Position numbers and translations under genes: made by a program
Shown here: positions 53,462-55,697 of the stretch, piece by piece
Layout of the letters: every line of letters begins with the position of its first letter
How positions within the stretch are numbered: the first letter of the stretch is position 1
Source: Parasphaerochaeta coccoides DSM 17374
GTDB taxonomy: Bacteria > Spirochaetota > Spirochaetia > Sphaerochaetales > Sphaerochaetaceae
DNA length: 64,000 bases
Reading direction: 5' to 3'
NCBI RefSeq assembly: GCF_000208385.1
Contig: NC_015436.1
Coordinates: 1 to 64,000, forward strand
The notes under the pieces: model-generated
Databases searched by the model: none
The model's input: only the letters and a program-made list of their open reading frames with translations
What the model was told of the DNA's origin: nothing

Positions 53462-55645
53462 TCAGAAAATTACCTGTTCGGGCGTGGTTCTGTTGGATCC
53501 GGGAATGCTGCCACCCAGACCCAGTTGCCCATCAGTGTTCCGTCCCGTCGCCCAGAGCGTGCCGTCCTTCTTCAAAATCATCGTATGGGAGTTTCCGACG
53601 GAGACGCCCGCGACGCCAGAACCCATGGACGAAACCTGTTCTGGCGTGGTTCTGTTGGTTCCGGGAAGGATGTCACCCAGGCCCAGCTGACCATATTCGT
53701 TGTATCCAGTCGCCCAGAGCGTGCCGTCCTTCTTCAGGATCATCGTGTAACTGCTTCCGGCGGAGACTTCCTTGACATCAGTCATGAAGTCGCTAGGAGT
53801 GGTACTGGCCTTGACCTGCACGGGCGTGCTTCTGTTGGTCGTAGTGCCGTCACCCAGTTGACCATAACCGTTGGATCCAGTCGCCCAGAGCGTGCCGTCC
53901 TTCTTCAAAATTATCGTGTGATTTATTCCGGCGAAGACGGCCACGACATCAGTCATGAAGTCATCGGGAGTGGTACTGGCCTTGACCTGCACGGGAGTGC
54001 TTCTGTTGGTCATAGTGCCGTCACCCAGTTGACCATAGGGGTTCTGTCCAGTCGCCCAGAGCGTGCCGTCCATCTTCAGGATTATCGCATGGTGTTCTCC
54101 AGCGGAGACAGCCGCGACATCAGTCATGACCTGCACGGGGATGCTTGTTGTATAGGTTAGCTCAGCGCCGACACCCAGTTGACCATAGTTGTTCCGCCCC
54201 GTCGCCCAGAGCGTGCCGTCCTTCTGCAAGATCATCGTGTGATACAGTCCGGCGGAGACTTCCTTGACATCAGTCATGACCCCGACCCCACCAAAACCCT
54301 TGACCTGCTCGGGCGTGCTTATGTCGGTAGTACCACCGATCCCCAGTTGACCATAGGCGTTGTGTCCAGTCGCCCAGAGCGACCCGTTTTTCTTCAGGAT
54401 CATCGTGTGGGAGACGAAGCCGGTTCCGTTATAGGAGAGGACTCCGCCGGAGGTGGCCACGACAGGATTGTTCGGATCAGCATTCATGGACGTGACCGGC
54501 ACGGGAGTACTTGTTTTTGTCTCAGGCAGGAGAGTCTCGCCGACACCCAGTTGACCATAGGAGTTCAGTCCCGTCGCCCAGAGCGTACCGTCAGTCTTCA
54601 GGATCATCGTGAGATAACCTCCGGCGGAGACTGACTTGACTCCCACCTTGACAGCAGGCGCGTTTATGCCGTCCCCGGTGTCCCAGTCCTGTATCTCAAT
54701 CTCAATAGCGGCAACGGCGACTTCTTCATCAGAGGTATTGAGCGTCATGTTGTAGACATGCTGCTTTCCCGCGTCAAAGTGAATCTTGCCTTGGTCAGAG
54801 GTCGCTACGGAATCCGCTATCCATGTGTATGTACCAGCGCCAGTACCACCGGTCAGGGTAAACTCCAGTTCCAGCACACTCAGCAACCACGACGAGTGAG
54901 CCTCAGGTATCAGCACAGCCTCGAACCGCCTCTTACCCTCATTTCTTTCAGATTGAGTAAGCGTGTCGGAAATGTCCTTCATGACAATAGACTCAATGAC
55001 ACTGGCAGCATCCAAGGTTCCGTCATTCAGGTTGATTGTGGTCTGCGTGTTCAAGCCTTTGACCGTAGCAGTAAATCCACCGGTGGCATCATTGATAGCC
55101 ACAGCATCAACAGTCGTGCTTGGGGCTATGTTGACAATCAGGCGGGAGAGCATATGGTCAAGCTTCAGATGCACCGTCGAGGTATTGTTCTGTACGTTGT
55201 CGGTGCGTCCCCACAGGAAGTCAGCCGTCCCGGTCATCTGTTCCGAGGAACTCCGGTTGATGTCTATGGCTACGGTCGTAGGGTCAGAGATGTTTTCATC
55301 ATAGGGATAATAGGCGATGAAGTCGAAGTGTGTGATGGTAGGGTTGGAGATGTCATCCCACTTCAAGGTGTCACCAGCGGTAGCAGGAGTGAAACCGGAA
55401 GTCTGGAAGGCTGTGTCAGCCGTATAGAGTTTGTTTGCACGTTCTGGGGCGGTAGTAGCTGCCGTGCCAGTACCATGTTCCAGCATGTAGATGCCGACGT
55501 CATCATCGGCTTGCCATTCGGAATTTGCCGTGGCTTTGCGTCCGATTTCCGTACTGAAACGCACTGCATTGGTATTTGAAATATTCAGCTTGTTGTCGCA
55601 TGAAATGAAGGTGATAAGTAGCATCAGAATGGTCAGGAAGACCAT
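53462..55645 (-). CDS. Fimbrillin-like/RCC1 surface lipoprotein A, phase-variable
   Basis: 727 residues from ATG 55645. A hydrophobic leader with lipobox TFISC, a fimbrillin-like domain (about 25-320; [12 protein letters not shown]-like [54 protein letters not shown]), then seven RCC1 repeats of about 50 residues, each with the core [22 protein letters not shown]. Seven blades make a closed propeller. The true start is probably ATG 55697, which has AAGGAAAAG upstream, but the (AG)18 tract after it leaves the frame shifted, so translation stops after about 13 codons. The internal ATG gives a signal peptide without basic residues. As sequenced the gene is likely OFF. Confidence 0.85.
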
Positions 55646-55658
55646 GACGCTTAGTTTA

Positions 55659-55695
55659 CTCTCTCTCTCTCTCTCTCTCTCTCTCTCTCTCTCTC
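55659..55695 (-). repeat. (AG)18 microsatellite at the start of lipoprotein A
   Basis: On the minus strand ATG (55697-55695) is followed by 18 AG units, then TAAACTAAGCGTC and the ATG at 55645. Translation from 55697 gives Met, six Arg-Glu pairs and a stop. With 16 or 19 units the frame would read into the lipoprotein. Confidence 0.95.
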
Positions 55696-55697
55696 AT

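Follow-up and report, generated by a model that had tools for sequence, protein, structure and literature searches.

Large repertoires of repeat-driven switches have been described mainly in mucosal pathogens, such as Neisseria, Haemophilus, Helicobacter and Campylobacter (PMC11868660, PMC3711429). In Neisseria, CTCTT repeats located in the region of the opa genes that codes for the leader peptide switch the reading frame (PMC3960869), and in Helicobacter pylori, CT repeats in the signal-peptide region turn oipA on and off by slipped-strand mispairing (PMC10564699). The babA and sabA genes of H. pylori were grouped with oipA as CT-repeat systems for comparison.

We analyzed the first 64 kb (64,000 nucleotides, hereafter the window) of the genome of Parasphaerochaeta (Sphaerochaeta) coccoides DSM 17374, a spirochaete which presumably originates from the termite gut. 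The genome is a single contig of 2,227,296 bp, and the window begins with dnaA, dnaN and recF; relatives of this dnaA belong to Spirochaetales/Sphaerochaeta. It carries a lipoprotein gene with a long AG tract immediately behind the start codon (Table 1). Like the opa genes (PMC3960869), this gene belongs to a multigene, putatively surface-exposed family with a non-triplet tandem repeat in the leader and with recombination between copies. Unlike in opa, the unit is AG rather than CTCTT and is placed immediately at codon 2, ahead of the hydrophobic core. Furthermore, the product is not a β-barrel but a lipoprotein combining a fimbrillin-like domain with an RCC1 propeller, and tracts of this kind occupy 24 loci of a Spirochaetota genome. 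As in oipA, the tract is a dinucleotide repeat within the region coding for the signal peptide; however, the coding strand reads AG rather than CT, the proteins are unrelated to the Hop-family outer membrane proteins, and the oipA tracts are shorter, whereas P. coccoides has 24 copies in one family, reaching 47.5 units. The P. coccoides tracts would act like those of Opa and OipA on unrelated proteins, and differ from them in repeat unit, position and organism. We consider it highly probable that the tract in the window is a slipped-strand phase-variation switch, one of 24 alike on a single lipoprotein family.

AG tracts behind the start codons of one gene family

At (AG)18, the 727-aa body of the window gene (53462-55645) and the ATG ahead of the tract are in different frames. 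The initial annotation had described the gene as OFF, with the start codon and 18 AG units leading to a stop after Arg-Glu repeats, and both the sequence and its translation agree with this description; arithmetic on the sequence likewise yields 16, 19 and 22 units (1 mod 3) as the in-frame lengths that had been given for this locus. A paralogue at 1725571 carries (AG)22 ahead of the same TAAACTAAGC and is open. Tandem Repeats Finder, run on the window, reported this tract and a second one (listed as 61359-61392), which the initial annotation had overlooked along with 22 further tracts across the genome.

Table 1. Positions of the tract genes, their upstream elements and related genes
Feature	Position	Strand	Description
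Start codon ATG, first window gene	55695..55697	-	directly precedes (AG)18
(AG)18 dinucleotide tract	55659..55694	-	leader codons 2-13, TAA next in frame
Body ORF, 727 aa	53462..55645	-	intact, OFF from the tract ATG; lipobox FISC, PF13149 fimbrillin-like domain, RCC1 propeller
Internal ATG	55643..55645	-	in body frame; alternative start named in the initial annotation; product without charged n-region
SD-like purine-rich GGAGAAAGGA	55707..55716	-	about 9 nt before ATG; from alignment, putative function
TATACT, -10-like hexamer	55770..55775	-	invariant across leaders; putative function
Upstream inverted repeat, half 1, ATACTTTTGGGTAAT	55798..55812	-	conserved motif
Upstream inverted repeat, half 2	55845..55859	+	1 mismatch to motif
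Upstream inverted repeat, second gene	61496..61557	-	halves 61496-61510 and 61543-61557
Second AG tract, (AG)16.5	61359..61391	-	after ATG 61394-61392; OFF
Body ORF behind second tract, 794 aa	58960..61344	-	counted from internal ATG; architecture as first gene
Paralogue without tract	56113..58596	-	ATGAGAGAGAATAAA leader (MRENKLL...), permanently open
Shorter paralogue without tract	44435..45442	-	without RCC1 (MRENKLSIVV...)
(TCCCAGAG)14 array, larger PF13149 gene (L117)	1848559-1848670		ON, open 1,073 codons
(TCCCAGAG)21 array, larger PF13149 gene (L119)	1997200-1997367		OFF, closes after 60 codons

Pattern searches over the whole 2.23-Mb chromosome identified exactly 24 AG tracts of ≥8 units; other repeat types were seen only within retrieved stretches. 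Tracts of about 8 units or more starting with G after a base other than A numbered 24, with T preceding every one, and no tract starting with A after a base other than G was found in the chromosome at about the same length. When the threshold was cut to 5.5 units, the G-starting tracts were still confined to the same 24 places. Read individually, all 24 loci have the form ATG(AG)n, and all 24 tract genes are included among the 49 PF13149 hits above cut-off in the genome. Shuffling the window 100 times with its dinucleotide composition preserved did not once produce even (AG)6. With 24 ATG(AG)n loci against zero in the shuffles, the occurrence of a tandem repeat with a unit not divisible by three in the 5' coding region is beyond chance.

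The tracts span 9.5 to 47.5 units, with 20 distinct lengths among the 24 genes, and the assembled values may be inexact for tracts of up to 95 bp. Lengths differ between paralogues and, given that one genome of the genus was covered, there is one length per locus. The copy at 1904076 is interrupted, reading (AG)16C(AG)4. With the tract ATG as the start, 6 genes are on and the two off frames hold 9 genes each (chi-square p 0.69 against thirds), as predicted for random slippage or random change in length. The frames of the 18 OFF genes close within about 10-33 codons. The repeat itself is free of stops, every frame consisting of AGA GAG or GAG AGA and coding for Arg-Glu. Being located ahead of the hydrophobic core and lipobox, the tract should be cut off during lipoprotein processing, so that its length would be expected to alter the frame and not the mature protein.

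The tract genes fall into two leader types of 12 genes each, (AG)nTAAACTAAGCGTCATGGTC (type 1) and (AG)n..AATCTGAGAGANCTGCGTATGAACAAATC (type 2). The proposal that the tract grew from the native second and third codons fits type 1; unexpanded ATGAGAGAGAAT starts are found in the window genes 44435-45442 and 56113-58596, as well as at 1445461 and 1630198. The origin is less clear for type 2, in which the tract together with NLRELR forms an N-terminal extension relative to the paralogue at 75228 (MNEKKGAKPG...).

A second type of repeat was identified in sister genes. Both TCCCAGAG arrays are positioned just behind ATGTGCAGAG and ahead of the signal peptide, and the unexpanded ATGTGCAGAGTCCCAGAGAGG is present in a sister gene (L113). 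The octanucleotide unit (8 bp) is likewise not divisible by three, and the fact that another repeat occupies this site elsewhere in the wider family strongly supports selection on switching. Among the untracted paralogues, those of the VRKN group (L108, L109, L112, L114 and L115) start with GTGAGAAA and have variable runs of G and A just upstream, and the frame of an upstream ATGATTTTTGG start relative to the body differs among the copies. Such runs could possibly constitute a homopolymer switch.

Protein architecture and maintenance of the OFF genes

Pfam, profile and fold matches corroborate the initial assignment of the window gene product as a lipoprotein with a fimbrillin-like domain and an RCC1 propeller. 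The Pfam search returned PF13149 (Mfa_like_1; E 1e-33, 117.7 bits against a cut-off of 27) and RCC1 repeats in seven stretches (E 1e-69), and no families besides these two. By inspection rather than with a dedicated predictor, a charged n-region, a hydrophobic core and a lipobox Cys were recognized, the latter being invariant in 39/39 aligned paralogues. In the AlphaFold2 model, built on the 39 paralogues (mean pLDDT 78, most of the propeller >90), residues 23-322 match a Bacteroides cell-adhesion protein (PDB 4k4k; Z 21.7, sequence profile E 3e-10), and residues 331-727 match UVR8 (Z 55) and BLIP-II (Z 27). The protein thereby shares a fold and a profile match with the fimbrillin-like cell adhesion proteins of Bacteroidales but, unlike these, is fused to an RCC1 propeller and belongs to a spirochaete lineage.

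The likeness to RCC1-type propellers (UVR8, HERC and BLIP-II) resides in the RCC1 stretches of residues 331-727, whereas the spirochaete family differs from them in being hypervariable at fixed positions of the repeat (SAGxxHT, GxNxxGQL). A comparison of 122 RCC1 repeats from the family shows little or no variation at most framework positions, but an entropy of 3.0 to 3.8 bits at five fixed positions (SAG-xx-HT, ATG-x-N-xx-GQL). In the alignment with UVR8, the first variable position corresponds to Trp285, where the W285A and W285F mutant chains carry A and F. Trp285 lies at the dimer-contact face of UVR8; judging from this alignment, the hypervariable residues of the propeller probably form one binding face. 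The RCC1 repeat pattern, for example at positions 53462-54650 of the window, resembles a patterned binding surface.

The bodies of all 18 OFF genes (about 680-980 aa) are unbroken. In simulations of neutral substitution on the same sequences, each gene acquired about 13 premature stops when 0.25 substitutions per site were applied, and 1.4 even with 0.02. The median dN/dS of OFF-OFF pairs is 0.43 (at dS 0.49), and that of untracted paralogues 0.40. From these comparisons, the bodies of the OFF genes are judged to be under purifying selection, and gene conversion could in part keep the copies intact. The genes at 1498845 (L097) and 1143857 (L093) share 438 identical bp in a row at an overall identity of only 88.6%, identical runs exceed those in all of 100 shuffles in 417 of the 779 paralogue pairs, and the nearest neighbour of a gene shifts along its length. 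Such mosaic paralogues (L093, L097 and others) indicate recent gene conversion, which, by the sequence comparison, is clearly present in the family.

Upstream region, orientation and distribution

About 190 bp ahead of the tract ATG, with an inverted repeat and the TATACT box, are conserved in the alignment of all 24 genes, and most of them have the SD-like sequence GGAGAAAGGAAAAGAC ahead of the ATG. A consensus -35 element was not found in the conserved leader with TATACT, sigma-70 and terminator scans of the upstream region gave no score above shuffles, and Rfam detected no RNA family within the window. A hairpin mechanism at the tract was considered and dropped, as folding of the leader RNA around the tract is unremarkable (z 0.59).

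Nearly all PF13149 genes are preceded by an inverted repeat of the form AACCCGAAAGTATTAT ... ATAATACCTTTGGGTAAT, centred on ATAATACYTTYGGGTAAT, including genes devoid of AG tracts, such as the octanucleotide genes and other non-RCC1 genes; the motif was absent from 20/20 sampled 6-kb stretches. The spacing of its half-sites varies among genes by exactly 10 bp, one helical turn, which would fit a DNA operator better than an RNA hairpin. This pattern suggests that the inverted repeat is a candidate operator common to the PF13149 genes.

Sampled GC skew switches sign at about 0.8-0.9 Mb. Relative to replication, all 24 tract genes and 40/40 genes of the subfamily are transcribed head-on, against only 26 of 94 sampled ORFs, although a probability calculated from these counts overstates the surprise, because duplicated genes are not independent. 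The other PF13149 genes are co-directional with replication in 8 of 9 cases.

To delineate the distribution of the tracts, we surveyed related genomes. Of 139 Sphaerochaetaceae genomes, only that of P. coccoides contains ATG(AG)7, and PF13149 is present in three, the other two having one or two genes each. The adhesin-like PF13149 lipoprotein repertoire is probably lineage-specific within the Sphaerochaetaceae. Across Spirochaetota, at least one ATG(AG)7 is found in 7 of 393 genomes, including P. coccoides, none of the others having more than 5; where inspected, the AG tracts of these other Spirochaetota mostly do not open long ORFs and are unrelated. In one unrelated Spirochaetota genome (G203, contig 118, L300), ATG(AG)11 opens a 383-codon frame. 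A protein scan of the genome-contig collection with the 794-aa paralogue retrieved no relative, and the exact leader sequence was not found among viral contigs. A literature search for phase variation in Sphaerochaeta or termite symbionts likewise yielded nothing, which does not by itself prove absence.

Proposed phase variation, its alternatives and implications

The initial annotation had read the single window locus as phase-variable. This reading is made strong by the location of 24/24 tracts at one site of one family in random frames, by the conservation of the OFF bodies and by the second repeat type at the matching site in sister genes. In the proposed mechanism, ribosomes would start at the ATG ahead of the tract, and whenever replication added or removed AG units, the frame of everything downstream would shift. 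One length class in three would yield the signal peptide, lipobox and mature protein (ON), and the other two would stop early (OFF). With about 24 independently switching loci, or 26 with the octanucleotides, each cell could carry a different subset of some 40 lipoproteins, most of them with propellers, and gene conversion among paralogues together with the hypervariable propeller positions would add further diversity. The benefit may lie in diversity of adhesion or in escape from phages, protists or the host in the gut. Slippage in vivo, silence of the OFF genes, surface exposure and benefit are what we infer from the sequence. MutS and MutL are intact in the genome, so that dinucleotide slippage should be slower, and rates may be below those of mismatch-repair-deficient species.

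The position of the OFF stops bears on how complete the OFF state would be. Every tract is closely followed by an internal ATG in the frame of the body. The OFF stops that were measured are located between 11 nt after and 14 nt before this ATG, and close stop/start pairs of this kind are the usual mark of translational coupling (criteria in PMC3711429). The OFF state could therefore leak by re-initiation at this codon, and we have moderate confidence that OFF may be leaky at the window gene. If re-initiation were efficient, tract length would act as a rheostat, setting high or low expression. We regard this as rather doubtful: a re-initiated type-1 protein would lack the charged n-region of the signal peptide and, since the frame would still matter, the model is a variant of phase variation that overlaps with our main explanation. 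Another potential entry point into the body frame is present in 5 of the 18 OFF genes, namely a distal ATG 19 codons upstream that has no SD (the window gene has none of these), and a few other OFF genes have a distal GTG or TTG upstream in the same frame.

The internal ATG could alternatively be the constitutive start (55645 in the window gene; MNKSSRP... in leader type 2), with the tract forming an untranslated or short upstream leader of irrelevant length. Besides the presence of this codon at all loci, the model draws on leader type 2, in which such a start yields a good lipoprotein signal peptide (MNKSSRPVFIVLTTILILLVAFVSC) and the paralogue at 75228 begins at the same place. However, in leader type 1, to which the window gene belongs, the product would be devoid of a positive n-region and no properly spaced SD was seen; the SD-like sequence is instead conserved ahead of the tract ATG, and the untracted type-1 relatives begin at ATGAGAGAGAAT or ATGAATGAGAGAG. 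Moreover, it would remain unexplained why all genomic AG tracts sit exactly behind an ATG. We therefore hold a constitutive internal start to be improbable.

A non-adaptive origin, whereby a slippage-prone leader was spread by gene conversion and the OFF genes are decaying, would account for the strong gene-conversion signal and for the random frames. It conflicts with the stop-free OFF bodies and their dN/dS, equal to that of untracted genes (to which gene conversion could contribute), and with the separate octanucleotide tract that arose at the corresponding site in sister genes, and we consider it very improbable. Finally, it is extremely unlikely that the tract lengths are an artefact of sequencing or assembly, since, even though long dinucleotide tracts are hard to assemble and a mixed culture would collapse to a consensus, the 24 tracts lie in 24 separate places and include an interrupted copy, leaving doubt only on the exact lengths.

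Beyond the switch at individual genes, a contingency display of the whole family can be put forward tentatively. At least 26 loci (24 AG and 2 octanucleotide) would switch independently, the propeller face would be hypervariable and reshuffled by gene conversion, the head-on placement of the AG copies would perhaps raise slippage or conversion, and an upstream operator would be common to the genes.

The proposed phase-variation switch has a clean design, in that the tract contains no stops in any frame and would be lost together with the signal peptide. A switch repertoire would here occur in what is probably a cultivable, harmless member of the Spirochaetota from the termite gut, where it is concentrated on one protein family. 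Such a system would allow tests of whether contingency loci serve gut symbionts in adhesion or in evading phages or predators, and of a link between the head-on orientation of genes and local hypermutation.
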